Shown here: positions 12,605 to 30,859 of the stretch, one piece after another | How positions within the stretch are numbered: position 1 is the stretch's first letter | How the letters are laid out: each line of letters starts with the position of its first letter | DNA from: Desulfohalobiaceae bacterium S24 | Lineage (GTDB): Bacteria; Desulfobacterota; Desulfovibrionia; Desulfovibrionales; Desulfothermaceae | Assembly: GCA_011389765.1 (NCBI GenBank) | Contig: JAABTT010000001.1 | Coordinates: forward strand, 62,001-126,000 | Direction of reading: 5' to 3' | Length of the DNA stretch: 64,000 bases | The notes under the pieces: model-generated | Database searches by the model: none | The model's input: the letters and a program-made list of their open reading frames with translations, nothing else | Told to the model about the DNA's origin: nothing | Position numbers and translations under genes: made by a program

Positions 12605-12610
12605 GATTCA

Positions 12611-13102: not shown

Positions 13103-13159
13103 AACATTTTGAAACAATTTAAGACTAATTCAGGGAGTGTTCCTGTGGCGGCACGGCCA

Positions 13160-13310: not shown

Positions 13311-13866
13311 AAGGACAGATGCTGCTGGTGTTTCTGATCAGCGTGCTCTTGATTTCTCTCGTCACCTATCGTTTGCTTGGCTTTGCCAAACGTCTGGAAA
13401 GCACCTCGGAAGCCCTGGACGTGAATGAAATCCTGCGCAATGTTGTCGGATTTATTCAGAAAGAAGCGGAGGATCAGAATGTGTCCATCGAATTCAATTT
13501 GCATGAAAATCTGGAGCATATCATTTCCGACCATGGTCAATTGGAGCAGGTCTTTTTGAATATCATCAATAATGCCCTGGCTGCAGTGGAAGATGAAGGC
13601 CGGATAGAAATCAGAACCTGGGAAGAATCCGGGTACATGGTTGCTGTATCCATTGCAGATAATGGCTTCGGGATGTCCACTCAAACCATGAACCATATCT
13701 TTGAACCGTTTTTCACGACGAAAAAGCAGTTCGGGACAGGGCTGGGATTGTCCATTACCTTCGGCATTGTGAAAAAACTGGGAGGGGAGATCAAGGTCGA
13801 GAGTCAGGTCGATGTTGGCAGTCGATTCATCATTTTTTACCAAAGCGACAAGGTGTTGTCAGTTAG
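13311..13866 (+). pseudogene. Decayed copy of dCache histidine kinase
   Basis: This matches the intact kinase (22564-24276) only in the second transmembrane helix (LKGQMLLVFLISVLLISLV) and the ATPase domain (FLNIINNALAAVEDEG, SIADNGFGM, TKKQFGTGLGLSITFGIVKK). The sensor domain and the dimerisation helix with its histidine are deleted, joining LISLV directly to TYRLLGFAKRLES. A one-base loss near the end shifts the frame; in the shifted frame the ending PKRQGVVS-stop is restored. Without the phosphoacceptor histidine it cannot act as a kinase. Confidence 0.88.
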
Positions 13867-13877
13867 GAGAACCTTGC

Positions 13878-14252
13878 ATGAGCCAGTTGAAGATATTGCT
13901 TGTCGACGATGAACAGGAGTTTTTGAGTGCTCTGGCTGAACGACTCGAACTGCGGGGCTATCAGGTGACTGCGGTCAACAGCGGCGAGGCGGCTTTACAG
14001 ACCTTTGAATCCGAAGTGCCGGACATTGTGGTCCTGGATCTCAAGATGCCCGGACTCAGCGGGCTTGATGTCTTGAAGCAGATCAATTCCTGGTTTGAGT
14101 TCGTACCGGTCCTGCTTTTGACAGGATACGGCTCCACAAAGGACGGTATGAAGGGCATGCACTACGGTGCTTATGATTATCTGATGAAACCCCTGAATAT
14201 TGACGATCTTATCGCCAAGATCCATGAGGCAGTCCAGGCCGTCAACTTTTGA
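13878..14252 (+). CDS. Single-domain response regulator (retained member of decayed cluster)
   Basis: A 124-residue receiver domain from the ATG at 13878 (GGAG upstream). It has the acidic pair in ILLVDDEQEF, the phosphoacceptor aspartate in IVVLDLKMPGLSGLDVL, the switch Thr in LLLTGYGSTKDG and the lysine in YLMKPLNIDDL. There is no output domain. It is a close paralogue of the receiver at 24438-24809 and is the only member of the first cluster copy without visible damage. It either decayed least or is still used, perhaps by the kinase of the intact copy. Confidence 0.88.
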   Translation: MSQLKILLVDDEQEFLSALAERLELRGYQVTAVNSGEAALQTFESEVPDIVVLDLKMPGLSGLDVLKQINSWFEFVPVLLLTGYGSTKDGMKGMHYGAYDYLMKPLNIDDLIAKIHEAVQAVNF

Positions 14253-14328
14253 TGGTCTCCACCAGAAAGGGAATAAGGCCCGGATCAGGAATGACTGATG
14301 ATGAGGCAAAAAACAGAGGAAGGGCACC

Positions 14329-14514
14329 ATGAGCAACCGAATGGAGCGGGTTGAAGTTTTCTGGGGCAAGATTATCGCCGGATATACGCATGAAATTAAG
14401 AACATCCTGGCAACCATAAACTGTGCAGGGACCTGCAGGGCCGCTTGCAATGGGATGACTCCGACCAGGTTCCTGACCCTCACCTTACCCCAGGCACCTT
14501 CCACCTCTGGGTAA
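14329..14514 (+). pseudogene. Decayed copy of kinase-like protein
   Basis: The first 31 codons (MSNRMERVEVFWGKIIAGYT, then HEIKNILATIN) match the start of the intact gene at 24846-25511. A large deletion then joins to its final part: LQGRLQWDDSDQV corresponds to LQTDLQWDASGSV, with a frame change before LTLTLP. It stops just before the Mrp operon, so the Mrp genes begin right where this cluster copy ends. Confidence 0.85.
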
Positions 14515-17362: not shown

Positions 17363-17712
17363 TGGAAATACTGGTTGCAGCAAGTGTCGGGGTCATGGTT
17401 GCCTGCGGTGTGTATCTGATATTGCGGGCAAGGACCTTTCCCGTTGTCGTCGGCCTGACCCTGATTAGCTTCGGTGTTAATATTTTTTTATTTGCCACCG
17501 GCAGACTGCACACCAACCTGCCGGCCATTATTACCTCTGAACAGATTCGGTATGCAGATCCTTTGCCCCAGGCCCTCGTGCTGACAGCCATTGTCATCGG
17601 CTTTGCCATGATCGCCTTTGTGGTGGTGCTGGCCTTGCGGGCCAGTGGCGAACTGCATACCGACCATGTGGACGGGCAGCCGGATGACGGCCGGCAAAAG
17701 GATGGACCATGA
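17362..17712 (+). CDS. mrpC: Mrp antiporter subunit C
   Basis: A 116-residue membrane protein with three helices, homologous to NuoK. MEILVAASVGVMVACGVYLI starts the first helix. ARTFPVVVGLTLISFGVNIF is the conserved second segment, and DPLPQALVLTAIVIGFAMIA is the family signature of the third. It overlaps mrpA by one base (TAATG) and overlaps mrpD by four, so translation is coupled. The charged C-terminal tail is short, as is normal. It is needed with A and D to form the ion path. Confidence 0.94.
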   Translation: MEILVAASVGVMVACGVYLILRARTFPVVVGLTLISFGVNIFLFATGRLHTNLPAIITSEQIRYADPLPQALVLTAIVIGFAMIAFVVVLALRASGELHTDHVDGQPDDGRQKDGP

Positions 17713-19280
17713 ATCACCTGGTTGCTGCACCTCTGCTGCTGCCCCTGCTCACGGGCGCATGGCTGGTTCTGGGTGTTGACCGGCCCATAGCCCGGCATCG
17801 GGCATTTTCCCTGGCCGGATGCCTGGCGCTCACCCTGATAACCGGTTTGCTGCTTTTCCAGAGCATCACCGGGCCTGTCCAGGTGTATGTACTGGGTAAC
17901 TGGTCCCCGCCATTCGGCATTGTCCTCGTCCTGGACCGGCTTTCTGCCATGATGGTTTTCATAACTGCTTTGCTGGGCTTTTTAAGCCTGGTGTATGCGG
18001 TCCACGGCACAGATCTGGAGGGGAAAAATTTTCATGCCCTGTTCCAGTTTCAGCTGCTTGGAATCAACGGGGCCTTTCTCACAGGGGATATTTTCAATCT
18101 GTTTGTTTTTTTTGAAATTATGCTCTTGGCCTCCTACGGACTGGTGCTGCACGGCGGGAGTGGCCCCCGGATCCGGGCCGGCATGCATTACGCCCTGCTC
18201 AACCTAGTGGGCTCCAGTATCTTTCTGGTGGGGGTGGGCATCCTGTACAGCCTACTGGGAACCCTGAACATGGCGGATCTGGCGGTGCGCATTATTCAAG
18301 CCCCGGAGAGCAGCGCCGCCCTGATCCAGGCCGGGGGACTGATTTTATTTGCCGTGTTTGCCCTGAAAGCCGCTCTCCTGCCTGTGTGCTTCTGGCTGCC
18401 GGCCGCTTATAGCTTTACCAGTGCGCCGGTGGCTGCCCTGTTTGCCGTCATGACCAAGGTGGGGGTGTATGTGATTCTCCGGGTATTTACCCTGATCTTC
18501 GGAGACCATGGCGCTGCCGGTGCCAACCTCCTGGCACCCTGGCTGCAGCCGGCGGCCCTGATCACCCTTGCCGCAGGTACCGCCGGTCTCCTGGCGGCCC
18601 AAAACCTGCGGCGGATCACCGCCTTTCTTGTCATTGTGTCCGTGGGAACCCTGCTGGCGGTGGCAGGCACCTTGGAACAGGATGCCATTGCCGCTGCCAT
18701 TGTGTATCTGCCCCACACCACCTTCATGACAGGGGGCATGTTTTTGGTGACGGACATGATCGCACAGCAGCGCCCGGATGCCGGGGCGAAACTCATCCCT
18801 GACCAGCCGGTGCAGCAGCAGACCCTGCTGGGTCTTCTGTTTATGGGGACCGCCATTGCCATTGCCGGTCTCCCCCCTTTGAGCGGGTTCTTTGCCAAGG
18901 TGATGATGCTCATACATGTCCAGTACTATTCCGGAAGTGCCTGGATCTGGTTTCTCATTCTTTTCGCGGGATTTCTGGGCCTTATCGCCCTGGGCAGGGC
19001 CGGCAGCATTATTTTCTGGAAAACCCTGCCTGTACAAAACATAAATTCAGCCGAAGGTGCCGGCACCCGCCCGAGCAGGCTGCCGGTTTTCGGCCCGATT
19101 TATGTATTGCCTGCCGCGGCCCTGCTGGGAATCAGCCCCCTGCTGGTGATATTCGGACAGCCCATGGCACGGTTTGCCGACACCGTGGCAGCACAGCTGG
19201 TTGAACCGGTTCTTTATATTGAAGCGGTGCTGGGGCTGGAGCGCGCAGCTTTATTCTTTGCGCATACAGGAGGTTTATGA
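17709..19280 (+). CDS. mrpD: Mrp antiporter subunit D
   Basis: A 523-residue multi-helix antiporter-like subunit homologous to NuoM/NuoN. Markers include IFNLFVFFEIMLLASYGLVL with the conserved glutamate, LKAALLPVCFWLPAAYSFTS with the helix-breaking lysine region, and SAPVAALFAVMTKVGVYVI. It forms one of the two proton/cation channel-like modules of the Mrp complex. It starts within the mrpC stop (ATGA overlap) and ends overlapping mrpE. Length is standard for the subunit. Confidence 0.94.
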   Translation: MNHLVAAPLLLPLLTGAWLVLGVDRPIARHRAFSLAGCLALTLITGLLLFQSITGPVQVYVLGNWSPPFGIVLVLDRLSAMMVFITALLGFLSLVYAVHGTDLEGKNFHALFQFQLLGINGAFLTGDIFNLFVFFEIMLLASYGLVLHGGSGPRIRAGMHYALLNLVGSSIFLVGVGILYSLLGTLNMADLAVRIIQAPESSAALIQAGGLILFAVFALKAALLPVCFWLPAAYSFTSAPVAALFAVMTKVGVYVILRVFTLIFGDHGAAGANLLAPWLQPAALITLAAGTAGLLAAQNLRRITAFLVIVSVGTLLAVAGTLEQDAIAAAIVYLPHTTFMTGGMFLVTDMIAQQRPDAGAKLIPDQPVQQQTLLGLLFMGTAIAIAGLPPLSGFFAKVMMLIHVQYYSGSAWIWFLILFAGFLGLIALGRAGSIIFWKTLPVQNINSAEGAGTRPSRLPVFGPIYVLPAAALLGISPLLVIFGQPMARFADTVAAQLVEPVLYIEAVLGLERAALFFAHTGGL

Positions 19281-19804
19281 TGCACAACCACAAAAAACCG
19301 TTCCTGTCTGCCCAGCGCTGGCTGCCCCATCCTTTGATGACCCTGATGCTGATTATCATCTGGCTGCTGCTGGTGAACGCCATTTCTTTTGGCCATATCA
19401 TTTTAGGAATCCTGTTCGGGGTAGCCATCCCCTGGTTCACCAACCGGTTCTGGCCGGAACGGCCCAAGATTGCAAAACCTGTGCAGTTGGTACGCTTTTT
19501 CTTCGGCACCTTTTTGCGGGACATCATTGTTGCGAACCTTAATGTGGTGCGGTTGACCCTGCAGTCCGACATCTCACAGCTGCAGCCCGAATTCATCGCT
19601 GTGCCCCTGGATATTGCAGACCAGATGGTGATTTCCATTCTGGCCAGTGTGATCTCTTTGACCCCGGGTACCGTGTCTGCAGAAATCACTTTGGACCGGC
19701 GTGTTCTGATCGTCCACGGCCTGGACATACCGGATCAAAAAGCAGCTGTCCGAACCATTAAAACCCGTTATGAAGCCCCTTTAAAGGAGATTTTCTCATG
19801 CTGA
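19277..19804 (+). CDS. mrpE: Mrp antiporter subunit E
   Basis: A 175-residue protein with two N-terminal membrane helices and a cytosolic C-terminal domain. LMTLMLIIIWLLLVNAISFG forms the first helix, and the conserved sequences LGILFGVAIPWFTNRFWP and SVISLTPGTVSAEI are typical of MrpE/MnhE. AGGAGG precedes the start inside mrpD. It overlaps mrpF by seven bases. It is required for assembly or full activity of the complex in known systems. Confidence 0.93.
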   Translation: MMHNHKKPFLSAQRWLPHPLMTLMLIIIWLLLVNAISFGHIILGILFGVAIPWFTNRFWPERPKIAKPVQLVRFFFGTFLRDIIVANLNVVRLTLQSDISQLQPEFIAVPLDIADQMVISILASVISLTPGTVSAEITLDRRVLIVHGLDIPDQKAAVRTIKTRYEAPLKEIFSC

Positions 19805-20067
19805 ACATTGCCGTCATTATCGCATTTACTTTGATTGTCATCGCCCAGGTGCTGAACTTGTACCGGCTGTTCAATGGGCCGAGTCTGCCGGACAGGATCC
19901 TGGCCCTGGATAATATGTATATTGATGCCATAGCCCTGTTTATTCTGGTGGGAATCCATTTCAGTTCCAAAGCCTATTTTGAAGCAGCACTGATCATTGC
20001 AGTCATGGGGTTTATCAGTACGGTGGCCACCAGCAAATACCTCACCAGAGGCGATATTCTTGAATAA
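19798..20067 (+). CDS. mrpF: Mrp antiporter subunit F
   Basis: An 89-residue membrane protein with three predicted helices. LYRLFNGPSLPDRILALDNM is the family signature (GPxxxDRxxA), followed by YIDAIALFILVGIHFSSKAY. Its length fits MrpF. Fifteen bases separate it from mrpG, with an AGGAG in the gap. Confidence 0.93.
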   Translation: MLNIAVIIAFTLIVIAQVLNLYRLFNGPSLPDRILALDNMYIDAIALFILVGIHFSSKAYFEAALIIAVMGFISTVATSKYLTRGDILE

Positions 20068-20082
20068 AACAGGAGAAGACCA

Positions 20083-20403
20083 ATGGTTGTTGTTGAATGT
20101 ATCATATCGTTTTTTCTAATCCTGGGGGCGTTTTTTGCCCTCACCGGTTCCATCGGTCTGTATCGGATGACCAACTTTTTCACCCGGCTCCACGGCCCCA
20201 CCAAAGCCACCACCCTGGGGGTGGGCAGTATGGCCCTGGCATCTGCCGTGTATTTCAGTTTCCAGGGAAACGGCATCAGCCTGCACGAGGTGCTGATCAC
20301 CCTGTTTTTGTTCATCACCGCACCGGTGAGTGCCCATTTTCTGGCAAAGGCGGCCCTTCACCTGCGGATGCACAAAAATACGGAGGCCTTGCCTCCCCGA
20401 TGA
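20083..20403 (+). CDS. mrpG: Mrp antiporter subunit G
   Basis: A 106-residue membrane protein closing the operon. GAFFALTGSIGLYRMTNFFT and RLHGPTKATTLGVG are the MrpG signature, followed by LHEVLITLFLFITAPVSAHF. All seven Mrp functions are therefore present on one transcript (AB fusion, C, D, E, F, G). A clear terminator is not visible after it, and 267 bases later the intact signalling cluster begins. Confidence 0.93.
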   Translation: MVVVECIISFFLILGAFFALTGSIGLYRMTNFFTRLHGPTKATTLGVGSMALASAVYFSFQGNGISLHEVLITLFLFITAPVSAHFLAKAALHLRMHKNTEALPPR

Positions 20404-20642: not shown

Positions 20643-20672
20643 TTGACAATATGTTTTATTTTGTTCTATTAT
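20643..20672 (+). promoter_or_regulatory. Sigma-70 promoter placed for leaderless start
   Basis: TTGACA (20643-20648), an 18-base spacer and TATTAT (20667-20672) form a near-consensus promoter. Transcription would begin near 20679-20680, exactly at the ATG at 20680 of the activator gene, and there is no Shine-Dalgarno sequence. A leaderless message is therefore likely. The relict copy at 12575-12604 keeps the same arrangement. Confidence 0.65.
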
Positions 20673-20679
20673 GTTTAAT

Positions 20680-22059
20680 ATGTACAGTCCATTTGAAACG
20701 CCGCTTCCCTATCAACAACTGATCAACAGAATCCCGCAAAGTCTTGTCCTTCTTGACACACAGCAGCGGATTGTCTTTCTGAATCAGGCCATGGAGGCTT
20801 TGACCGGCTTTTCCCAGGAGGAGGCGGCGCAACTTCCCTGTTGCTTTGTCATCAGGAGCAGTCTTTGTGGTTTGCAATGCCCCCTCAAAAAGATGAATGT
20901 CCATTCCGAGCCCTTTTCTGTAGAAGGGGACATTATCAATAAACAACGCCAGAAAATTCCTGTTCGCCTGACCAGTGTGCCCTTGCTGGATGATCAGGAA
21001 AATCTCGCTGGCTGGCTGGAATGTTTTGACGACCTCCGCTCGATGCAGGAGGTTGCGGCCAGGAAGGCCGAGAATTTTGGACTGGGACCGCTGATCGGCA
21101 GCAGTCATGAGATGGAAAAGATTTTTGACTTGACCCTGGCAATCGCGGGAACCGATTCTTCGGTTTTGATCACTGGTGAAACCGGCACCGGCAAGGACGT
21201 TTTGGCCGAAGTCATTCACCAAGAATCTTCACGACAGCAAGGGCCTTTTATCAAGGTAAACTGCGGGGCTTTGCCTGAGACTCTCCTTGAATCCGAGCTT
21301 TTTGGCCACCATAAAGGGGCTTTTACCGGGGCCACGGAAAATAAGCCGGGACGCTTCAAACTTGCCCATAACGGCACGCTTTTCTTGACCGAGATCGGCG
21401 ATTTGCCGCATATCCTCCAGGTTAAGCTTTTGTCCTTTTTGGATGATCAGGTGATCTATCCCCTGGGAAGCACCAAAGGACTTCAGGTCAATGTTCGGGT
21501 CATTGCCGCTACCAATCGAAATCTCAATGCCATGGTCCGGGAAGGGCGTTTTCGAGAGGACCTCTATTATAGGCTGCATGTGGTCCAGGTCCATCTTCCT
21601 CCTCTGCGGGAGCGGGGAGCAGATATCGGGTCTTTGTTGGAACACTTTTTGCACACCTATATTGATAAATTTCAGAAAAAAATACAGGGCTTTTCTGCCG
21701 AAAGCCAACAGATCCTGATGGCCTATGCCTATCCGGGCAATGTGCGGGAGTTGAAAAATGTCGTGGAGTTTGCTGTGAATATCTGCGATGGGATCGAAGT
21801 CGAAGTCCGCCATCTGCCCGCGTATCTGAAGGACGCGCTATCCGGGGACCGCGACCATGATCTTCAAGTGGGGCCAGGCCCTGGACCAACTGAAGGGGGC
21901 AGGGCGCTCCGGCAGGAGACCTGGTCAGAAACTGAAAAAGAGATGATCCGCAGCGCCCTGGTTCGGAACAAGGGGAAAAAGCAAAAGGCGGCTGAGACTC
22001 TGGGCTGGGCGCGCAGTACGCTTTGGCGCAAAATGAAACAATACGGCTTGAGTGATTAG
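20680..22059 (+). CDS. PAS-containing sigma-54-dependent transcriptional activator
   Basis: A 459-residue enhancer-binding protein. Residues about 10-120 are a PAS domain (QSLVLLDTQQRIVFLNQAME) with several cysteines (PCCFVIRSSLCGLQC) that could sense redox or bind metal. The AAA+ domain has Walker A GETGTGKD, the sigma-54 contact motif GAFTGAT and [10 protein letters not shown] as Walker B region. The C-terminal Fis-type HTH ends GWARSTLWRKMKQYGL. There is no receiver domain, so input is through the PAS domain. It heads the intact signalling cluster. I prefer the ATG at 20680 because the first ATG (20671) overlaps the -10 element. Target promoters were not identified. Confidence 0.92.
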   Translation: MYSPFETPLPYQQLINRIPQSLVLLDTQQRIVFLNQAMEALTGFSQEEAAQLPCCFVIRSSLCGLQCPLKKMNVHSEPFSVEGDIINKQRQKIPVRLTSVPLLDDQENLAGWLECFDDLRSMQEVAARKAENFGLGPLIGSSHEMEKIFDLTLAIAGTDSSVLITGETGTGKDVLAEVIHQESSRQQGPFIKVNCGALPETLLESELFGHHKGAFTGATENKPGRFKLAHNGTLFLTEIGDLPHILQVKLLSFLDDQVIYPLGSTKGLQVNVRVIAATNRNLNAMVREGRFREDLYYRLHVVQVHLPPLRERGADIGSLLEHFLHTYIDKFQKKIQGFSAESQQILMAYAYPGNVRELKNVVEFAVNICDGIEVEVRHLPAYLKDALSGDRDHDLQVGPGPGPTEGGRALRQETWSETEKEMIRSALVRNKGKKQKAAETLGWARSTLWRKMKQYGLSD

Positions 22060-22139
22060 AACTTTTTGAAACTATTTGAGACAAGCCCAGGGCTGTGTTT
22101 TAGTGGCGGCACGGTCAGGGTTTACTGAAAAGGTTTGTG

Positions 22140-22532
22140 ATGTCGACTGTTCTCATTCCCATTCAGGGACACTATGTGGCCCCGCGTTTCGATCTTACTC
22201 CCGAAGTCTGGCTTGGCCGATATGATCAGCCGGACCGCGAGCCTCAGGGCAAGGTCCTGGTCTTGGCCCATCCTTCTGCGGATAAGGTCTGCCAGATGGT
22301 CTTGGATGAACGTGTTACCGTTGTCGTCTGCGGTGGTATCGAGGGCCAGTATTTCGAGTATCTGATATGGAAAAAGGTGGAGGTCTTTGATTCGGTCATC
22401 GGGAGCTACAAAAAAGCGGTCCAGGCTCTGGCCGAGGGCAGACTGCGATCGGAGATGATCTTCCGTGAAGATTTCGGACAGGAACAGGCGGGGGCCGGCG
22501 GACGCCATGGATACGACGCACAGAACCCCTGA
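22140..22532 (+). CDS. NifX/NifB-type (dinitrogenase FeMo-cofactor domain) protein in signalling cluster
   Basis: A 130-residue protein from the ATG at 22140 (AAAAGG upstream; the preceding in-frame GTG is less likely). It has the NifX-like layout: VLIPIQGHYVAPRFDLTPEV, then a strand-helix region, VTVVVCGGIEGQYFEYLIWK with the conserved Cys-Gly-Gly-Ile, and VFDSVIGSYKKAVQALAEG. Relatives bind iron-molybdenum cofactor precursors or other metal-sulfur clusters. No nitrogenase genes are nearby. It lies between a sigma-54 activator and a histidine kinase, which suggests a sensory or carrier role tied to this circuit. That role is inferred from context. Confidence 0.78.
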   Translation: MSTVLIPIQGHYVAPRFDLTPEVWLGRYDQPDREPQGKVLVLAHPSADKVCQMVLDERVTVVVCGGIEGQYFEYLIWKKVEVFDSVIGSYKKAVQALAEGRLRSEMIFREDFGQEQAGAGGRHGYDAQNP

Positions 22533-22563
22533 AAAAGGCCCAGGCAATGAGGATCGGAATCAT

Positions 22564-24276
22564 ATGAAGGCGAAGTACCTGACTACTCTTATTTCCCGGA
22601 TCCGAAAAGGAACAGGGGAGAACGGAAACCGGTATCAAAAACTTCGCATCCGGATTGCGGTGGGCATGTTCGTGGTCACCATCCTGCCTTTGAGCATCAT
22701 GCTGGTCATCAATCAGCATAATTTCCAGAAATCGCTCAAGCAGGAAACCGTATCCCAGCTTCGGACTTTGGCCTCGAAAACCAAACATTCCTTTGAGCTT
22801 TTTCTCCAGGAACGATTGAGTGCGGTGCGCTACATTGCACATGCCTACAACTTTGAGCAACTCAAAAGTCCTGACAAGCTTCAGGAGATATTTTATACGA
22901 TTCAGGAAAATTTTTCCGGCTTTGTCGATCTGGGCCTGATCAATCCGGAGGGTATCCAGATCAACTATATCGGCCCTTATGATCTTCTGGGCAAGGATTA
23001 TGCTCAAACCGATTCGTATCAAGGAGTTCAAGTGAGTGGCGACTGGATCAGCGAAGTCTTTCTTGGCTATCGCAAATTCCCGCATATTGTCATGGCAGTG
23101 GAACGTAGGCGGGCTTCCGGTCAAAACTGGATACTTCGTGCGTCCATCGATATCGACACCTTCAACGAAATACTCGGCGCCATGGGGCTGGACCCGGAAA
23201 GCGACGCGTTTTTGATCAATCAAAAAGGATTGCTGCAGACTCCATCCAAATTTTACGGAGAAATCTTGACCCCCGTTCCCCTGAGTGTTCCACCCAAAAC
23301 CATGCAGCCCTTCGTGCGTGAGACCGAAGACCGGCAGGGGCGGGAGATTTTTCTGACCTATGCCAATCTGGCCAACCAGAAGTTCATCCTGACCATCGTC
23401 AAACCCAAAGCGAGTTTTTACAAGTCCTGGTATGCGCTGAAAGGGCAGATGCTACTGGTGTTTTTGATCAGCGTGCTCTTGATCTCTCTCGTCATCTTCA
23501 GGTTGACCGGGCATATGGTCAGACAGATCAAAGATGCGGACGAGAAGCGAGAAATCGCCTTTCGTGAGCTGGAGCACAGCCACAAGTTGTCCTCCATCGG
23601 GCAGATGGCCGCCGGGGTGGCCCATGAGGTCAACAATCCACTGGCCATTATCAACGAAAAAACCGGCTTGATGCAGGATCTGCTGTTAGCTTCGCCGGAG
23701 ATGGAAAAACGCGATAAATTTTTGAGCCTGGCGGATTCGATTCTACAGTCTGTAGAACGAGCCCGGGGCATCACCTATCGTTTGCTTGGTTTCGCCAGAC
23801 GCCTGGAAAGCAGTTCGGAGGCTTTGGATGTGAATCAGGTCCTGAACAATGTCGTGGGTTTTATTCAGAAAGAGGCGGATGATCGCAACGTCTCCATCCA
23901 GCTGGACCTGCAGGAAAGCTTGGATCGGATTGTTTCAGATCAGGGGCAGTTGGAGCAGGTTTTTTTAAATATTCTCAACAATGCCCTGGCAGCTGTCGAA
24001 GACGAAGGCCGGATTGAAATTCAATCCTGGGAAGAATCGCCGGAAATGATAGCTGTCTCCATTGCGGACAACGGCTCTGGGATGTCCAAAGAAACAATGG
24101 ATCATATTTTTGAACCTTTTTTTACAACCAAAAAACAATTTGGAACAGGGCTTGGATTGTCCATTACCTATGGAATTGTGAAAAAATTGGGCGGCGAGAT
24201 CAAGGTTCAGAGCCAGATTGATGTCGGCAGCCGGTTTGTCATTTTCATACCGAAGCGGCAAAGTGTCAGGAGTTAG
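22564..24276 (+). CDS. Membrane histidine kinase with periplasmic dCache-like sensor
   Basis: From the ATG at 22564 the product has about 570 residues; a start at 22507 overlapping the previous gene is possible. A first helix (VGMFVVTILPLSIMLVI, about 33-49) is followed by a periplasmic sensor of about 240 residues resembling dCache domains (FSGFVDLGLINPEGIQINYI). The second helix is GQMLLVFLISVLLISLVIF. The dimerisation helix has AAGVAHEVNNPLAIINE with the phosphoacceptor histidine. The ATPase domain has NILNNALAAVED, DNGSGM and GTGLGLSITYG. It presumably phosphorylates the adjacent receiver at 24438 and perhaps others in the locus. Confidence 0.92.
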   Translation: MKAKYLTTLISRIRKGTGENGNRYQKLRIRIAVGMFVVTILPLSIMLVINQHNFQKSLKQETVSQLRTLASKTKHSFELFLQERLSAVRYIAHAYNFEQLKSPDKLQEIFYTIQENFSGFVDLGLINPEGIQINYIGPYDLLGKDYAQTDSYQGVQVSGDWISEVFLGYRKFPHIVMAVERRRASGQNWILRASIDIDTFNEILGAMGLDPESDAFLINQKGLLQTPSKFYGEILTPVPLSVPPKTMQPFVRETEDRQGREIFLTYANLANQKFILTIVKPKASFYKSWYALKGQMLLVFLISVLLISLVIFRLTGHMVRQIKDADEKREIAFRELEHSHKLSSIGQMAAGVAHEVNNPLAIINEKTGLMQDLLLASPEMEKRDKFLSLADSILQSVERARGITYRLLGFARRLESSSEALDVNQVLNNVVGFIQKEADDRNVSIQLDLQESLDRIVSDQGQLEQVFLNILNNALAAVEDEGRIEIQSWEESPEMIAVSIADNGSGMSKETMDHIFEPFFTTKKQFGTGLGLSITYGIVKKLGGEIKVQSQIDVGSRFVIFIPKRQSVRS

Positions 24277-24329
24277 TGTCTGAACGGAAACAGCGATCGG
24301 ACGTCAATTTGCCCAGATACGAGGAACAC

Positions 24330-24418
24330 GAAAATTTGAAACCGCAGTGTATTCGAATACATGAGGTATTTACAATTAGGCAATGACGAAGGAGATGGGT
24401 GCGTTTTCGGCCAATCAT
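24330..24418 (+). repeat. Dispersed palindromic repeat A, copy 2
   Basis: AAAATTTGAAACCGCAG followed by TGTATTCGAATACA (a perfect palindrome) and ATGAGG matches copy 1 at 928-1040, which has TGTATTTCAATACA at the same place. The following GCAATGACGAAGGAGATGGG also matches. It lies between the kinase and receiver genes. Confidence 0.78.
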
Positions 24419-24437
24419 GAGTGAGGAGGACGGTGGG

Positions 24438-24809
24438 ATGAAGGTATTGAAAATTTTGCTTGTTGATGATGAGCAGGAATTTGTGACTGCCCTGGCGGAG
24501 CGTTTGGAATTGCGGGGGTATGAGGTCAGGGCTGTCAACAGTGGCGAAGAGGCCTTGCAGGTCCTTGAAGCCGATGTGCCGCAGGCTGTGGTTCTGGATC
24601 TTAAAATGCCGGGTTTGAGCGGGCTTGAAGTTTTGAAGAGAATCAAGGAACAGTTTCAGTCCTTGCCTGTTCTGCTTTTGACGGGCTATGGCTCTACAAA
24701 AGACGGCATGAAAGGCATGCAGTTCGGGGCCTATGATTATTTGATGAAGCCTCTGAATATCGATGATCTCATTACGAAAGTTCATGAGGCGGTCAATGCC
24801 TCTCAATAA
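24438..24809 (+). CDS. Single-domain response regulator
   Basis: A 123-residue receiver from the ATG at 24438 behind GAGGACGGTGGG; earlier in-frame ATGs lie in the repeat. It has ILLVDDEQEF, the aspartate in AVVLDLKMPGLSGLEVL, LLLTGYGSTKDG with the switch Thr, and MKPLNIDDL with the lysine. There is no effector domain. It is the probable cognate partner of the upstream kinase and a paralogue of 13878-14252. Confidence 0.93.
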   Translation: MKVLKILLVDDEQEFVTALAERLELRGYEVRAVNSGEEALQVLEADVPQAVVLDLKMPGLSGLEVLKRIKEQFQSLPVLLLTGYGSTKDGMKGMQFGAYDYLMKPLNIDDLITKVHEAVNASQ

Positions 24810-24845
24810 AAATGGCTTTAAGGCATTCAAAAGTGAGTCAATACT

Positions 24846-25511
24846 ATGAGTAGTCGTCTTGAACGGATAGAAGTATTTTGGGGCCAACTCATGGCCGGAT
24901 ATACACATGAAATGAAAAACATTCTGGCAACCATCAATGAGTCCGGCGGTTTTATCGATGATATTTATAGGCTTCACAAACAGAATGATCCGGCCTATCA
25001 GAAAAAAATCCAAATATCTTTGGATATTATCCGCCAGCAAGTGGAACGGGGCGAATTGCTTTCCAGTCAGCTTAATGCCTTGGCCCACAGTCCGGATCAG
25101 GAGATAGGCTCGATTTCCCTTCAGGACACCGTGTCCGTGCTGGTGGGACTCTACGAGCGTTTTGCCAGGCGAAAAAAAGTGACCCTCAAGCTCGATGCGC
25201 CTTCGGAAGGATTGAGCATGACCACAAATCAAGTCCTCATGATGCATCTTGTTTTTGTGGCCTTGGAATGGACGCTTTCTGGATTCCAGTCAACAGGTGA
25301 AATCCTGATTCGTCCTCGGAAAGGCCATTCCGGATATTTGCTTGAAATTGTCTGCTCCGGAGAACATCTTTCCCATGATACCGCAGGCGAATATTGGAGC
25401 CTGATGCACGATTTGGGCGACAAACTGCAGACTGACTTGCAATGGGATGCATCCGGATCGGTCTTGAGTCTGGCCTTTCCCGTGGAGCTTTTCGGGCCTG
25501 CTTCCAGATAA
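24846..25511 (+). CDS. Histidine-kinase-like protein with degenerate ATPase domain
   Basis: A 221-residue soluble protein with no close named family. Near the N terminus AGYTHEMKNILATINESGGF resembles a kinase H-box, with His21 as possible phosphoacceptor. A helix follows with LDIIRQQVERGELLSSQLNA. The second half looks like a remnant of a HATPase domain: in the N-box position it has LMMHLVFVALEWTLSG rather than Asn-containing sequence, and there is no G1 or G2 glycine box. It could act as a phosphotransfer or scaffold protein for the neighbouring receiver. A strong terminator follows, so it closes this transcription unit. Confidence 0.65.
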   Translation: MSSRLERIEVFWGQLMAGYTHEMKNILATINESGGFIDDIYRLHKQNDPAYQKKIQISLDIIRQQVERGELLSSQLNALAHSPDQEIGSISLQDTVSVLVGLYERFARRKKVTLKLDAPSEGLSMTTNQVLMMHLVFVALEWTLSGFQSTGEILIRPRKGHSGYLLEIVCSGEHLSHDTAGEYWSLMHDLGDKLQTDLQWDASGSVLSLAFPVELFGPASR

Positions 25512-25540
25512 TACGAATAGGCAACACGATATCGGTTCAC

Positions 25541-25587
25541 CTAAAAAAGGGGGCCGGGAGCGAATCGTTCCCGGTCCCCTTTTTTAT
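25541..25587 (+). terminator. Rho-independent terminator of the five-gene cluster
   Basis: AAAAAAGGGGGCCGGGA pairs with TCCCGGTCCCCTTTTTT across a nine-base loop, 30 bases after the kinase-like gene. The A/T flanks make it bidirectional in form. Confidence 0.9.
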
Positions 25588-26351
25588 GCGACGTATACCA
25601 GAAGTTGGCATAATTTGCTGTTTGTATCTGCCTTCAATAAAAAAAGACCTACGTTCAAGACCATATTGCAGACATCTTACAGAGATTGCGACATTGAATC
25701 TTAACCTTTTTAAATAATGAACAATATACGGAATGTTGTTAAAATTGGACATTCTTTTGGTTTCAGATTTCTGGTGTCAGGAAAAGAAAGATAAATCTAT
25801 ATCAAGGCGTTAAGCCCTGGCACCCGACACCTGAAACCTCAAAAAGAGGCAAGTAATATCACAAAATGTCCAATAATTCCTTCAAATTTTCGCGTACTGT
25901 AAAGAGCTCTGTATTGTTTTAAAATGTTCCATTTTGATTTAAAACATAAGGTTTCAAAATGTCTTCCGAGCTAATGGTGCTTGTTGCAGTGAAGGTTGAA
26001 AAAAGCCGGATCTGAAGAAAGTGTTCAGGCCAAAAAAATTGAAAGCGGCAATTTCAGCCAGATTTGTTCACTGCAGATAGCTTTTGGAGCGACTTGTGCC
26101 GGAAGTCAAAAGCAAACAGGAAAAAGGGATTGTAAATGGCATGAAAAATGCAATAGAGAAGATACCTGAGATTGAGCATCTTCAGGATAGTCTTTAAGAA
26201 GGACATGCTCCCTTCAAGGCTTATTGACAGATATGCAGCGCAGCAATCTTCAAAACAAAAAAAGGGCTCAATCTCAGGATAATCATGACTGTCGATAAGG
26301 TAGGTATTCTAACAGGGACCGAGCACAACAAGTCGAGGAAAGGAGAAAAAA
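25588..26351. other. Long intergenic region with repeat debris
   Basis: No gene is supported. It holds an inverted partial copy of repeat A (25881-25916) and a pair of GGTGTCAGG / CCCGACACC sequences (about 25773-25835). A 37-codon frame (about 26083-26197) from a TTG has no ribosome site or recognised homology and may be a relict. The promoter of the small FAEA-motif gene at 26352 must lie near the 3' end. Confidence 0.5.
25881..25916 (-). repeat. Dispersed repeat A, partial inverted copy 3
   Basis: On the minus strand this reads TACAGAGCTCTTTACAGTAC, then GCGAAAATTTGAA, matching the first 35 bases of copy 1 (928-964). The palindromic second half is absent. Confidence 0.7.
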
Positions 26352-26546
26352 ATGAAAAATTTACTCGAAAAAATTGAAAACATTTTGGTGGCTGCCAGCT
26401 TTGCCGAGGCCAATGCCCATGATACTGCCAGAGAATATATGGGCGCGACACCGGCTCAAGGCAATATGGGCCGACAACTTCAGAACTTTTTGGAGGATAT
26501 CGGTCTGCAGGATGTTCCAGTAACCTATGGCATAGCCAGATTATAA
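26352..26546 (+). CDS. Small FAEA-motif protein
   Basis: A 64-residue protein from the ATG at 26352 with AGGAG upstream. Its first half, LLEKIENILVAASFAEANAH and DTAREYM, repeats almost exactly the C-terminal tail of the receiver encoded next and resembles the tail of the following pseudo-receiver. The second half (QLQNFLEDIGLQDVPVTYGI) is unlike them. There is no signal peptide or membrane helix. I do not recognise a named family. The shared helix suggests a docking or dimerisation element common to proteins of this locus. Confidence 0.7.
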   Translation: MKNLLEKIENILVAASFAEANAHDTAREYMGATPAQGNMGRQLQNFLEDIGLQDVPVTYGIARL

Positions 26547-26573
26547 TAAAAATCGAGACAATTGGAGGATACA

Positions 26574-27035
26574 ATGAGTGAGATCAAAGTGCTTTTAGTG
26601 GATGATGAAAAGGAGTTCGTCAATTCTCTGGCGGAACGTATTGAAATGCGGGATTTGGGCTCAAAGATCGCTTATGACGGAGAACAGGCCATGCGCCTGG
26701 TTCAAGACGAAATCCCTGATGTTGTGGTCCTCGATCTCAGAATGCCCGGCATTGATGGAATCGAGGTCCTGCGCCGGATGAAGAAACAGTATCCAAAGGT
26801 GCAGGTGATCGTCCTCACCGGCCATGGTTCCGAAAAAGACGAGCGAATGGCCAAGGAGCTCGGAGCTTTTGAGTATTTACAAAAACCAACGCCCATCGAG
26901 CAGCTGACCAAACTCATCAAACGGGCCTATAAAGAAAGAGTCGAAGACACCATGGTGGCGGCCACATTTGCTGAGGCCGGCGATGATGCAACCGCAAGGC
27001 AGACCTATGCCCGGAGTAAGAAAAGCAAAGATTAA
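26574..27035 (+). CDS. Response regulator with FAEA-motif tail
   Basis: A 153-residue protein from the ATG at 26574 behind GGAGG; the TTG reading 12 bases upstream includes that ribosome site. The receiver has VLLVDDEKEF, the aspartate in VVVLDLRMPGIDGIEVL, VIVLTGHGSEKDE and the lysine in YLQKPTPIEQL. After about residue 120 comes the tail ERVEDTMVAATFAEAGDD with ATAR, shared with the neighbouring small protein. No DNA-binding domain. It probably works through protein contacts mediated by the tail. Confidence 0.9.
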   Translation: MSEIKVLLVDDEKEFVNSLAERIEMRDLGSKIAYDGEQAMRLVQDEIPDVVVLDLRMPGIDGIEVLRRMKKQYPKVQVIVLTGHGSEKDERMAKELGAFEYLQKPTPIEQLTKLIKRAYKERVEDTMVAATFAEAGDDATARQTYARSKKSKD

Positions 27036-27065
27036 AAAGCCTTTCTGCATATCAGGAGCCGGCAG

Positions 27066-27629
27066 GTGTCGATTTCAGTAGTGATTGTCTGCTTTGCCGA
27101 AGTTTTCCAGGACTACTTGAAGTCTCATTTCAAGGAGAAAGAGTGTCGGATCAGAGAAGCGGGAACAATTTCCGAGATCATGGAGTGCGCCGCCGCTGAA
27201 GCCCTGGACGTCCTTCTCCTGGATTTGACTGAAGAACGGCAGCGTGGTCTGGAAATTATCCGGCAGATTCACGCCAATTATTCACAGATCCCAATTGTGG
27301 TCGTGGTCCGTAAGGATGATGTTCAAACCTCCATTGCCGCGATGAACTCAGGGGCGTATGATGAGCTGTCCGATCCATTTGACTGGAATGTTCTGGATTC
27401 AAAAATTGAAGCGGCCTTCCAGGAAAAAGTACGAAAGGAAAAAGCAGCACAAAAGGTTGGTTTTTTTCAAAAAATCGAAGATTACTTTGCAGCTGCAGCT
27501 TTGGCGGAGCAGAGATCGCCGGAAATGGCCAGAAAGATAATCGCGGTTGGGAAGACGGGCAGAAGGCCCAGCGGAGACTTTGCGCCTTCTCTGCCAAAAT
27601 CGAAAAAGAGTCGCAGGAGAGATAAATGA
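27066..27629 (+). CDS. Degenerate receiver (pseudo-receiver) with FAEA-like tail
   Basis: A 187-residue protein from a GTG at 27066 with AGGAG upstream. The fold is receiver-like: the aspartate position is kept (VLLLDLTEERQRGLEIIRQI), but the acidic pair is replaced (VVIVCFAEVF) and the conserved lysine region reads DELSDPFDW, without lysine. Phosphorylation is therefore doubtful. The tail has FFQKIEDYFAAAALAEQRSP and EMAR, related to the FAEA motif of the two genes before it, and ends in a basic stretch (KSKKSRRRDK). It overlaps the CBS gene by four bases. Confidence 0.78.
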   Translation: MSISVVIVCFAEVFQDYLKSHFKEKECRIREAGTISEIMECAAAEALDVLLLDLTEERQRGLEIIRQIHANYSQIPIVVVVRKDDVQTSIAAMNSGAYDELSDPFDWNVLDSKIEAAFQEKVRKEKAAQKVGFFQKIEDYFAAAALAEQRSPEMARKIIAVGKTGRRPSGDFAPSLPKSKKSRRRDK

Positions 27630-28204
27630 AAGATACCTTTGTTAGGAGTATGATGGTTCCCTTGGAACAGTATGCCACGGTGTCCGAGGAGGCCACCCTG
27701 CATGAGGCGGTCCTGGTCCTGGAAGAAGCCCAGAAGAATTACCTCAAAATCAGTCAAAAAAACATCTATCCCCATCGTGCCATCCTGGTGCTGGATGAAC
27801 ATGGACAGGTTGTGGGGAAGGTCAGTCAGGTGGATGTCATCAAGGCTTTGGAGCCCAAATATCAAGAACTGATCTCATCGAAGAATATGGCCAGCATGGC
27901 CACCAGCGGCTTTAGTACAGAATTTTTACGGAATATGTTAAGACCCTACGGTATGTTCAGCAAACCGTTGGATTTTTTGTGCCAGAAGGCGGCCAGGGTC
28001 AAGGTCAAGGAACTGATGTACACCCCGGATCAGGGGGAATTCGTGAACGTGGATGATTCTATGGATATCGCCGTGCATCAGTTTATTATGGGCCGTCATC
28101 ATTCCCTGCTGGTCATGGACGACCATGAGGTCATTGTCGGGATTCTGCGACTGGTGGATGTTTTCAATGAAGTCGCCTCGGCGATCAAGGCTTGTAAGAT
28201 TTGA
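27626..28204 (+). CDS. CBS-domain protein
   Basis: A 192-residue soluble protein with two CBS motifs. The first covers MVPLEQYATVSEEATLHEAV to AILVLDEHGQVVGKVSQVDV; the second covers VKELMYTPDQGEFVNVDDSM to LLVMDDHEVIVGILRLVDVF. CBS pairs bind adenine nucleotides and adjust partner activity. A helical insert separates them. The ATG overlaps the pseudo-receiver stop, so they are coupled. In this locus it may convey energy state to the receivers or to the downstream anion carrier. Confidence 0.9.
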   Translation: MKDTFVRSMMVPLEQYATVSEEATLHEAVLVLEEAQKNYLKISQKNIYPHRAILVLDEHGQVVGKVSQVDVIKALEPKYQELISSKNMASMATSGFSTEFLRNMLRPYGMFSKPLDFLCQKAARVKVKELMYTPDQGEFVNVDDSMDIAVHQFIMGRHHSLLVMDDHEVIVGILRLVDVFNEVASAIKACKI

Positions 28205-28243
28205 TAGTTGGAAGTTCCAGTTTATCAGGGAGAGGAGGCAAGC

Positions 28244-28687
28244 ATGAAGATACGCGTGTTATTGGTGGATGATGAACAGCAGTTCCTTGATCAACTCGCA
28301 GAGCGCTTGAAGATCCGGGAGTATGATGTAAGCACCTGCCTGAGCGGAGAGGAGGCTCTGGAAAAAGTCAGGAAGTACAACTTCGATGTGTGCATTCTGG
28401 ATGTGGCCATGCCCGGCCTGGACGGCATCGAAACCCTCAGAGAGATCAAACGCCTCAAACCCTTGATCGAAGTCATCATGCTCACCGGCCATGCCACGGT
28501 CGAGTCCGCGATAGAAGGAATGAAGCTCGGGGCCTTTGATTATCTTCTCAAGCCCACCCAAACTGACGATCTCGTAATTAAGGTTGAAACGGCAAACAAG
28601 CGAAAGGCCGAGCAGGAAGAGCGGATTCGCCAGGCCAAAGTCAAAGAGATCGTTTTGTCACCCAGGTCGGTTCTATCGAAGGAATAA
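28244..28687 (+). CDS. Single-domain response regulator
   Basis: A 147-residue receiver from the ATG at 28244 behind GAGAGGAGG; 12 earlier codons are not supported. It has VLLVDDEQQF, the aspartate in VCILDVAMPGLDGIETL, VIMLTGHATVESAIEG and the lysine in YLLKPTQTDDL. The tail ANKRKAEQEERIRQAKVKEI is a charged helix and resembles that of the receiver after the carrier gene. No output domain. Confidence 0.92.
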   Translation: MKIRVLLVDDEQQFLDQLAERLKIREYDVSTCLSGEEALEKVRKYNFDVCILDVAMPGLDGIETLREIKRLKPLIEVIMLTGHATVESAIEGMKLGAFDYLLKPTQTDDLVIKVETANKRKAEQEERIRQAKVKEIVLSPRSVLSKE

Positions 28688-28788
28688 TCTTCAACATTCT
28701 TAATAATAATAGGTAGTTGTCTTGGAAACATCCAGGCAAGAACAGGAAAGCTGCGTCCATTGTCTGACTCAATACTGGAGGAGCGTTC

Positions 28789-30399
28789 ATGCATCACGAA
28801 AATGAAATTTCACAAAATGGCGGTCTGTTGTCCAATAAGACTTTTTGGCTCTGTATCGGGGCAGGGGTATTTTTTCTGATCGCCTTTATTCTGCCGACTC
28901 CGGAAAGTCTGGTTGTGGTGGTTCAGGAGAATGGATTTGCGCAGCAGATGATCGATTGGGGGGTGGCCTCAAATGCCCTGGAGGCCGCGGACAAGACCAT
29001 GATCGTCTTAGGGATCATCCCCATGGCGGTCATTTTTTTTGCCACCGAAGCCATCCCCATCGGCTTGACCGGCTTGCTCATGCCCATGCTGGCCTATTTT
29101 CTGGAACTGATGCCGAAACAGATGATCGGCAAGACTTTTGCCGGGGATGCGCCCATGTTTCTGCTCGGTGTTCTGGCCATGGGCGTGGTCGTGGTGGAGG
29201 TCGGCCTGCACAAGCGTCTGGCCACCTGGATTCTGGGTTGGACCAAAGGTTTTCTCCTGCCCATTTTTGTTCTGTCCATCAGTATGGCCGTTATCGGATC
29301 CTTTATATCGGCCCATGCCATGTGCGCTTTTATGACCCCGGTCATGATGGCGGTCTATTACGGGGCCGTGGCCGCCAACAGCCCAAACGGCGAAATCCGG
29401 CATGATCCGGCATTGGCCAAATTTCTGCTCTTCACCCTGTGTTACGCCCTCAATGTCGGCGGGGTCGGCTCTCCGGCGGCCGGAGGACGGAACGTGATCA
29501 TGATGGGCTTTTGGAGCGGGTATGATGTCCCCATGGATTTTTTCACCTGGATGAAATACGGCTTCCCCATGGTCCCGGTTTTAGGCTTGATGGTGGCCGT
29601 GTATATGGTCTTTTTCTTTTCCAAAAAAATCAAAACCCGTGACTTGACGCCCGGTCTTGCGGCCATCAAGGAGGAGACCAGGCGTATGGGTAGGATGAAA
29701 TACGGCGAATTCGTCGCCCTGGGCATGCTTATCCTCATCCTGGGGCTCTGGATCTTCGGTGGTCACGGCCTGGGACTCGGCGGCCCTGCCTTGTTGGCTC
29801 TTTTGATTCCGGTGATTTTCCGGATCACCGCCTGGCAGAAAATCCTCCAGGGCGTCTCCTGGGACGCCTGGTTCATGTACTGCGGGGCCCTGACCATGGG
29901 CGCTCTGCTCAAGGACAGCGGCGCGGCCCTCTGGCTGGCCCAATCCGTGATGAAGTTTTTGACCCTGGCCCATATGGATGAAGGCTTCGGCCTCTGGGTC
30001 GGGCTGTCCGCATTTTCCGGGCTGATGACCAACTTCATGTCCGATGCCGGGACAACGGCCCTCTTGGGTCCCATCGTCATCCCCATCGGGATCATGTCCG
30101 GCCATGTGGGCGAGCCCTGGGCCTCGGGAATGGCCGTGGCCTTTGCCACCTCCTTTGCCCATTTCCTGATTGTAGGTACCCCGAACAACGCCATTGTTTA
30201 TGGTCTGGGCACCTATCCGGATACCGGGGAGCGGGCCATCAAACCCATTGATTTTCTGAAATACGGTTTTCTGCTCTGGGTGTTGTCCATGCTCGTGGTC
30301 TGGGTTGTCGGCTTTTTGGGGACGTTCTGTCTGCTCGGTTTTCCCGAGGGGATACTGGAGACAGCCAAGACAGTACTGGAGAGCGGGGCAGCTGACTGA
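28789..30399 (+). CDS. DASS/SLC13-family anion:sodium symporter
   Basis: A 536-residue membrane protein with about 12 helices, start ATG at 28789 behind GGAGG. It has the two substrate-site signatures of the divalent anion/sodium symporters: ALNVGGVGSPAAGGRNVIMM in the first half and FAHFLIVGTPNNAIVYGLGT in the second, plus NFMSDAGTTALLGPIVIPIG. Likely substrates are dicarboxylates, tricarboxylates or sulfate; sequence alone does not decide. It lies between two single-domain receivers and after a CBS protein, which suggests the circuit senses or controls uptake of this anion. Confidence 0.9.
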   Translation: MHHENEISQNGGLLSNKTFWLCIGAGVFFLIAFILPTPESLVVVVQENGFAQQMIDWGVASNALEAADKTMIVLGIIPMAVIFFATEAIPIGLTGLLMPMLAYFLELMPKQMIGKTFAGDAPMFLLGVLAMGVVVVEVGLHKRLATWILGWTKGFLLPIFVLSISMAVIGSFISAHAMCAFMTPVMMAVYYGAVAANSPNGEIRHDPALAKFLLFTLCYALNVGGVGSPAAGGRNVIMMGFWSGYDVPMDFFTWMKYGFPMVPVLGLMVAVYMVFFFSKKIKTRDLTPGLAAIKEETRRMGRMKYGEFVALGMLILILGLWIFGGHGLGLGGPALLALLIPVIFRITAWQKILQGVSWDAWFMYCGALTMGALLKDSGAALWLAQSVMKFLTLAHMDEGFGLWVGLSAFSGLMTNFMSDAGTTALLGPIVIPIGIMSGHVGEPWASGMAVAFATSFAHFLIVGTPNNAIVYGLGTYPDTGERAIKPIDFLKYGFLLWVLSMLVVWVVGFLGTFCLLGFPEGILETAKTVLESGAAD

Positions 30400-30427
30400 T
30401 TTTATTTTGCACAAGGAGTGAACAAAA

Positions 30428-30859
30428 ATGAATCCCTATATTCTTTTAGTCGATGATGAAGTGCAGTTTGTCGAAACCATGCAGAAGCGACTGGTCAAGA
30501 AAGGCTTGAAAGTTGCCGCCGCTTTGAGCGGTTCAGAAGCTCTGGACGTGCTCGGTAAGCACCGGAATATCGACGTGGTGATCCTGGACGTCAAGATGCC
30601 CGGCATGGATGGGCTTGAAACCCTACAGGAGATCAAAAAGAGGCTCCCCCTGGTGGAAGTGATCATGCTGACCGGACATGCCACAGTGGAATCCGCTGTG
30701 CAGGGCATGAAGCTCGGGGCCTATGATTACCTGATGAAGCCCTGCGATCAGGAGGAATTGCTGGACAAGGTCCATGAGGCGGTGGGGGTCAAACGCAACA
30801 GAGAAGAAAAGATTCGTGAAGCCGCGGTCAAAAATGCCTTATCCGGCTTTCAGGATTAA
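30428..30859 (+). CDS. Single-domain response regulator
   Basis: A 143-residue receiver with ILLVDDEVQF, the aspartate in VVILDVKMPGMDGLETL, VIMLTGHATVESAVQG and the lysine in YLMKPCDQEEL. The C-terminal helix (KRNREEKIREAAVKNAL) resembles that of the receiver at 28244. AAGGAG precedes the ATG. It is followed by a truncated sensor gene, so a kinase partner may have been lost here. Confidence 0.92.
   Translation: MNPYILLVDDEVQFVETMQKRLVKKGLKVAAALSGSEALDVLGKHRNIDVVILDVKMPGMDGLETLQEIKKRLPLVEVIMLTGHATVESAVQGMKLGAYDYLMKPCDQEELLDKVHEAVGVKRNREEKIREAAVKNALSGFQD

Follow-up and report, generated by a model that had tools for sequence, protein, structure and literature searches.

We analysed a locus at 20.7-30.9 kb of a 64,000-nucleotide window (contig C1 of genome G000, positions 62001-126000) from Desulfohalobiaceae bacterium S24, whose draft genome of 3.5 Mb comprises 137 contigs and is 94% complete. 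The locus encodes a PAS/sigma-54 activator (S54), a NifX-like protein, a membrane histidine kinase (HK), a single-domain receiver (RR1) and a kinase-like protein (HKL), followed by a protein of 64 amino acids (aa), a second receiver (RR2), a degenerate pseudo-receiver (dRR), a CBS protein, a third receiver (RR3), an anion carrier and a fourth receiver (RR4) (Table 1). Open reading frames, Pfam and alignments located every protein listed in a first-pass annotation of this DNA where that annotation had put it; the 64-aa protein had been overlooked. The module is real and conserved and belongs to a published kind of cluster; its wiring and its promoter appear to be new.

Table 1. Genes and regulatory features of the locus (window coordinates).
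Feature	Position	Strand	Basis and remarks
S54 (PAS + sigma-54 AAA+ activator + Fis-type helix-turn-helix)	20671..22059	+	Pfam
NifX-like protein	22137..22532	+	Weak match to PF02579; family motif VAPRFDL
HK, membrane histidine kinase with dCache-like sensor	22543..24276	+	Pfam
RR1, single-domain receiver, key residues intact	24435..24809	+	Pfam, alignment
HKL, DHp with conserved His (THEMKN) and ATPase-like domain	24846..25511	+	Candidate histidine phosphotransferase
Intrinsic terminator, 21-pair hairpin with U-rich 3' arm	25542..25586	+	3' of HKL, closes unit 1; z -8.2
Candidate enhancer repeats GTTTTAAAATGT...GTTTCAAAATGT	25916..25964	+	About 170-220 bp upstream of the sigma-54 promoter
Candidate -24/-12 sigma-54 promoter ATGGCATGAAAAATGCA	26136..26152	+	Start of unit 2; consensus scoring
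Small open reading frame, 64-aa protein	26352..26546	+	One FAEA tail-module copy, conserved C-terminal end
RR2, single-domain receiver with C-terminal tail module (VEDTMVAATFAEAGDDATARQ)	26574..27035	+	Alignment
dRR, conserved pseudo-receiver with C-terminal tail module	27066..27629	+	PF00072, 52.6 bits
CBS protein, two CBS motifs; GKxSQxD and GILRLxD conserved	27626..28204	+	Pfam, alignment
RR3, single-domain receiver	28238..28687	+	Pfam, alignment
DASS/CitMHS-type anion carrier	28789..30399	+	Pfam; both SNT motifs replaced; conserved Arg234
RR4, single-domain receiver	30428..30859	+	Aligns as a receiver with all key residues; outside the Pfam run

Pfam detected no receiver domain in S54. The HisKA and HATPase_c domains of HK scored above their cut-offs and dCache_1 just below its own (44.4 bits against 45); the start of HK was set at 22543 by choice, and the open frame permits 22465. 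The gene between S54 and HK gave 21.1 bits against PF02579 (cut-off 26.3), over profile positions 38-93 of 94 only, and its product is called NifX-like here and not classed as NifX. A full PF02579 protein of the NifX/ORP type (86 bits) is encoded at 44171-44998 of the window, apart from the locus.

The locus consists of two transcription units, S54 to HKL (unit 1) and the 64-aa gene to RR4 (unit 2), divided by a strong terminator. The gap between HKL and the 64-aa gene contains the terminator hairpin followed by about 550 bp. Pattern scans for sigma-70 promoters and terminators gave counts near those of shuffled sequences and were not used, save for this hairpin, which was scored separately. 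To score the -24/-12 region we used the general consensus, with weights of our own (maximum 21.7), at 23 loci whose RR2 homologue is 52% identical or more; L050 was dropped, as it lies on the same contig as L043. A match of at least 19 was found upstream of unit 2 in 18 of the 23 loci and a shuffle p of at most 0.05 in 20, whereas random windows of the same lengths reached 19 in 40 of 460 cases. Simpler carrier loci, with the CBS gene upstream and without S54, HKL or RR2, reached this score in 1/33 cases, in 400-bp windows that are shorter than many of those of the 23 loci. The site in the window scored 19.2 (shuffle p 0.015, 3/201) and is retained in two sequences of the same genus.

Upstream of the promoter, the hexamer GTTTCA was counted on either strand in 18 regions of 260 bp (L048, from the same genome as L044, was dropped). 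It was present in 17 of them, compared with 3.5 expected from shuffles, often near -113, -89 and -79. The array resembles the enhancer expected for the neighbouring activator and is a likely candidate for it. The sigma-54 promoter before the carrier unit thus offers the PAS/sigma-54 protein a direct transcriptional target, and from this arrangement S54 very probably drives unit 2. The PAS domain of S54 carries a C-x8-C-x3-C motif in 11 of 12 distinct proteins, the window's included, which suggests a metal, cluster or redox input. The orp cluster of Desulfovibrio vulgaris, which is not known to include a kinase, receivers or a carrier, holds a NifX-superfamily protein (ORP), a likeness to the NifX-like gene described here, although the latter stays below the PF02579 cut-off. 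The orp operons (activator DVU2106) are similar in that a local sigma-54 activator with upstream sites drives neighbouring operons (PMC3897727; statements on this and the other papers cited by PMC number refer to the parts of their text that were available).

The first-pass annotation had staked its reading on the neighbourhood being conserved outside this strain, and it is. A carrier-based scan of GTDB genomes gave 100 relatives, of which the best 80, at 62-90% identity, were kept; gene order recurs among them in other genomes, and the locus is therefore more than a chance assembly. Their titles mainly name Desulfobacterales, Desulfobacteraceae or Deltaproteobacteria, and three name Candidatus Zixiibacteriota. 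The closest carrier among named GTDB contigs (90% identity, L050) comes from a metagenome-assembled genome (MAG) labelled Desulfohalobiaceae. At 51 of the 64 testable carrier loci, i.e. those with at least 700 bp on both flanks, a CBS homologue lies within 2 kb on the same strand. S54 of the window's type was found at 11 other loci, with the NifX-like gene directly downstream in all 11 and HKL also present in nine. In these loci the order S54-NifX-HK-RR1-HKL, followed by small protein, pseudo-receiver, RR2, CBS, carrier and receivers, is nearly invariant. Several loci pair within one MAG (L043/L050, L044/L048, L099/L105 and L101/L108), so that not every locus counted stands for a separate lineage. 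Overall, carrier loci range from a simple carrier with a CBS gene to elaborate sets like that of the window. In the window's family, the carrier occurs in 5 of 11 genomes, and dRR matches at E <1e-15 are confined to these five.

HKL matched no Pfam family. Once a truncated protein and three true kinases had been taken out of the family set, the phospho-acceptor His of the THE-x-x-N box was found in all 20 full-length members. A motif scan of 19 members detected the H-box in 19 and an N, G1 or G2 box in none; the HKL of the window, read by eye, likewise lacks the ATP-site motifs. G1 and G2 were present in the adjacent HK family (21/21), in a second kinase family (16/16) and in a third (14/16). 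An active kinase was rejected for HKL because the N, G1 and G2 motifs are missing. The structural model (21 sequences; pLDDT 83.2, pTM 0.77) shows a DHp hairpin, with helices at residues 2-42 and 49-80, and an ATPase-like domain; Foldseek and VIA placed it among histidine kinases, with the "phosphotransferase" entries 4qpj and 4qpk at Foldseek ranks 43 and 47.

ChpT, Spo0B and PhyT are degenerate kinases that transfer phosphate, and ChpT has a DHp and an ATPase-like domain without ATP binding (PMC5898713, PMC3433190). In the SdrG-PhyT-PhyR, CckA-ChpT-CtrA and Spo0F-Spo0B systems, as is proposed here for the window, a lone receiver passes phosphate to a histidine phosphotransferase of the degenerate-kinase type (PMC5898713, PMC3433190). 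By its anatomy HKL probably works like these proteins, although its ATPase-like domain fits kinases in general at least as well as it fits ChpT. We therefore regard HKL as a likely phosphotransferase, and the phosphorelay proposed in the first-pass annotation has become more plausible than it was argued there, given the invariant His and the lack of ATP-site motifs. The known relays end on a regulator that controls transcription (PhyR, CtrA or Spo0A), whereas no receiver of the window has an output domain.

The four intact receivers retain the acidic pair, the phospho-Asp, the Thr and the Lys (DD/D/T/K), and with 124-153 aa they are too short for an output domain. In dRR the corresponding residues are C,F/D/V/D. 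Among 17 aligned proteins of the dRR type, none retains the Lys, and the acidic pair is disrupted; the phospho-Asp persists in the window and its genus, but many others have Ser or Asn in its place. The model of dRR keeps the receiver fold (pLDDT 82.7), and helix 5 runs, with lower confidence, into a helical tail. A decaying gene was rejected as an explanation of dRR, since a pseudo-receiver recurs in the 17 aligned proteins, even if many of these lack the phospho-Asp. The first-pass annotation had proposed that the system acts through protein contacts. Output is not by such contacts alone, as the sigma-54 promoter adds a transcriptional one for S54.

RR2 and dRR end in a common module, approximately E-D-x-M-V-A-A-x-F-A-E-A-G-E-x-x-T-A-K/R, which is found once or twice in the small protein. 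Homologues of the 64-aa frame occupy the same place in other loci, and comparison with that of L044 gave 17, 10 and 37 differences at the three codon positions (pS 0.81, pN 0.19). A search of 26,453 six-frame pieces from 89 sequences with a profile of the tail yielded 42 matches at E ≤1e-3 in 21 sequences, with E-values that are partly circular because the homology seeds came from the same loci. Twenty of these 21 sequences also have an RR2 homologue; L070 has the tail without one. Comparison with TPR gave only matches below the threshold, and a TPR identity of the tail was rejected.

The window's genome holds five copies of the tail, three at the locus and two beside another SLC13-type carrier on contig 105, so that within this genome the module accompanies anion carriers of the SLC13 superfamily. 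Receivers may use it as a contact for reaching a shared partner. The contig-105 locus (L130, 6055-13153) encodes two tail-module proteins, one of them USP-like, a CitMHS/TrkA_C carrier, Cytidylate_kin2, a kinase and an NtrC-like activator. It resembles the window's locus in combining an IT-superfamily carrier, a kinase, a sigma-54 activator and the tail module in neighbouring proteins; it differs in that the tail is on USP-like proteins and the activator is of the NtrC type, with its own receiver. On the minus strand of the same sequence (3367-5502) lies an apparent fusion of a receiver with Lon-protease-like sequence, named by reading the protein.

The carrier scored 103 bits against PF00939 (cut-off 27), and CitMHS also passed. 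Against the NCBIfam model TIGR00785 (dass) it gave 156.3 bits, below the cut-off of 198.6, and for this reason we call it DASS-like, a divergent branch. In an alignment with VcINDY, the SNT/SNV motifs are both replaced, by S-A-H and S-D-A. Over 74 distinct proteins (partial carriers of up to 480 aa were dropped), His176 is kept in 72 and Asp419 and Arg234 in all 74. A pocket of this composition would fit an inorganic oxyanion.

The window's genome contains dsrA above the family cut-off; since, in addition, the closest carrier lies in a MAG labelled Desulfohalobiaceae, the host is taken to be a dissimilatory sulfate reducer. Among 297 genomes of the phylum, the carrier was found at a threshold of E 1e-60 in 19, in 13 of them at 69% identity or more and in six at 37-43%. 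dsrA was present in 18 of these 19 genomes versus 144 of all 297 (Fisher p 1.3e-5, relatedness ignored); the only carrier genome lacking it is 66% complete. The carrier thus accompanies sulfate reducers and is not required by all of them. In Desulfobacterium autotrophicum, DASS genes are induced at high or low sulfate (PMC5840216). We consider sulfate or a similar oxyanion the probable substrate. The first-pass annotation had suggested uptake of an anion such as sulfate or a dicarboxylate: an inorganic anion gains from the dsrA link, the published clusters described below and the lost SNT motifs, and a dicarboxylate has become the poorer guess. In the CBS protein, the Asp of GKxSQxD is conserved in 54 of 55 aligned rows and that of GILRLxD in 55 of 55, the window being counted twice. 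Such conservation is compatible with adenylate binding.

A cluster of this general kind was reported in 2025. In Desulfosarcina variabilis, a 30.5-kb cluster combines two DASS sulfate transporters with CBS proteins and numerous two-component genes; related clusters were found in 26 species and assigned to sulfate uptake, with the proposal that the kinase senses outside sulfate and that the CBS proteins sense the energy state (APS, adenosine phosphosulfate; ATP; or sulfate) (PMC11887813). The resemblance to the window, which concerns described gene make-up and not sequence, extends to the DASS carrier accompanied by two-component and CBS genes, the cache-sensor kinase and the occurrence in sulfate reducers. 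The D. variabilis cluster is described with two DASS carriers and with response regulators of the WalR type (PMC11887813); in the window there is a single carrier of this kind, and every receiver is a single-domain protein. In the available main text of that paper, phosphorelay, receiver and NifX do not occur, and sigma occurs once, for other genes. It was the only paper treating such a cluster that our literature search found; the terms used to look for a sulfate carrier were absent from the available text of PMC4641369 and PMC12316311. The earlier statement that no system of this composition had been described therefore fails in outline.

Taken together, we propose that the locus equips a dissimilatory sulfate reducer with a stand-alone module for taking up a divalent oxyanion, sulfate being the likeliest one, in which unit 1 would be a control box ended by the terminator and unit 2 a carrier box begun by the sigma-54 promoter. 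S54, which the Cys motif of its PAS domain and the NifX-like protein may gate, would bind the GTTTCA array and fire the promoter, a step well supported by conservation, and the carrier and its receivers would consequently be made only on demand. The dCache kinase would sense a ligand outside the cell and phosphorylate the lone receiver RR1; the His of HKL would take over the phosphoryl group and hand it to the receivers of unit 2. In the last and weakest step, phosphorylated RR2-RR4 might tune either the carrier or the CBS protein, with competition through the shared tail from the pseudo-receiver and the 64-aa protein, and the CBS protein might supply an adenylate check (ATP/AMP or APS). The promoter logic is well supported; the direction of the relay, the targets of the receivers and the substrate are what we infer. 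We lean slightly towards the joint statement of sigma-54-switched, sulfate-type uptake with a relay from kinase to receiver to phosphotransferase to receiver, its last step being the weakest. An action of the receivers on the carrier or the CBS protein after synthesis is a tentative suggestion. Slightly more doubtful is a gating of the finished carrier in which phosphorylated receivers, pseudo-receiver and 64-aa protein compete via the tail for a partner, the carrier or the CBS protein.

Sulfate reduction begins with the uptake of sulfate, which determines how fast the process runs and what it costs in energy, yet knowledge of how the carriers of sulfate reducers are regulated comes mostly from genome context. 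If the proposal is true, an external signal (kinase), the internal adenylate state (CBS) and transcription (sigma-54) would converge on one sulfate-type carrier. Should the receivers act on the carrier, the phosphorelay would be unusual in having transport instead of a gene as its endpoint, and a relay whose last target is a transporter, and whose built-in competitor is a receiver tail copied in a microprotein, would be a new kind of two-component output. The promoter, the likely enhancer, the probable phosphotransferase and the shared receiver tail are concrete, testable parts.

Several observations pull the other way. In five of the 23 loci no promoter match reaches 19; L043 and L099 are close to the ends of their contigs, L085 scores 18.2, and L096 and L129 show no S54 of the window's type in the available sequence. 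The window's own match is among the weaker ones, and over its full length sigma-54 matches are not in excess (30 seen versus 34.9 expected). The top structural matches of HKL are ordinary kinases. The residues of the carrier suggest but do not prove a substrate, and the Fisher test drew on related genomes, which are not independent. In the family, 9 of 11 genomes are above the dsrA cut-off compared with the five that have the carrier, so that many sulfate reducers do without it; conversely, genome G007 (85% complete) has the carrier and no dsrA match. At 13 of the 64 testable loci, no match to the window's CBS family lies within 2 kb, although two of these (L066 and L076) have another CBS-domain protein adjoining the carrier. 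The tail was not found at E 1e-3 in L096, L097, L098 and L129, i.e. in 4 of 24 entries with an RR2 homologue.

HKL could instead be a pseudokinase that holds a partner in check by binding it, in the way that NifL restrains the activator NifA or that kinases are acted on by RetS and DivL. The kinase pathway would then be tied directly to S54, all output would be transcription, and the receivers would only tune HK or HKL. HKL shares a unit with the sigma-54 activator, and DivL, RetS and the NifL-NifA complex appear in its lists of structural matches; however, a pure scaffold would need neither the His nor the THExxN box, which all 20 members keep, and the four intact receivers adjoining HKL require a phosphate source. 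We consider the pseudokinase unlikely, and much the same doubt attaches to a carrier importing a dicarboxylate or other organic anion, whose link to sulfate would reflect only the shared ancestry of sulfate reducers. The Pfam CitMHS score as high as Na_sulph_symp would fit such a carrier, as would its best solved relative, VcINDY, a dicarboxylate carrier, and the absence of the carrier, at the threshold applied, from 126 of the 144 genomes with dsrA. The replacement of both SNT motifs, which line the carboxylate site in VcINDY, and the presence of dsrA in nearly all carrier genomes speak against it. The assignment of related published clusters to sulfate does so as well (PMC11887813).

That the receivers are independent phosphate sinks, or orphans served by unlinked kinases in a cluster kept together by gene-order inertia, seems more improbable again. 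Receiver number does vary (28 of the best 80 of 100 loci have none nearby, some of these on short contigs), and extra kinases occur at several loci, but the S54-NifX-HK-RR1-HKL order recurs jointly with the sigma-54 promoter and the slot for the pseudo-receiver. A chance cluster, or genes decaying in one strain, has a negligible probability: a decayed second control unit is present at 12.6-14.5 kb, yet the genes at 20.7-30.9 kb are intact, and the widespread recurrence of the neighbourhood refutes a chance origin. A defence-system reading was rejected as well, five proteins of the locus having no PADLOC match.

The decayed unit (12600-14500 of the window) contains pieces of S54, NifX, HK and RR1 and the start of HKL at about 76-92% DNA identity, scattered over frames with stops; its RR1-like piece is nearly complete in a single frame. 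Between it and the intact locus (14534-20403) lie genes resembling a multi-subunit Na+/H+ antiporter of the Mrp type. The Na+ gradient from such an antiporter could power a Na+-coupled carrier; the antiporter did not recur among the neighbour families shown for other carrier loci. At those loci, a PPDK_N/PEP-utilizer protein recurs near carrier clusters (11 loci, including L081 at 9041-11638), as do TauE-type proteins at others, and both are possible further parts of the large clusters. On the three contigs labelled Candidatus Zixiibacteriota (L113, L116 and L119), the carrier adjoins a CBS homologue, which suggests either transfer between phyla or an old pair. A second carrier from the same genus, 39% identical (L047, contig C117 of genome G007), is flanked by two kinases and two receivers.

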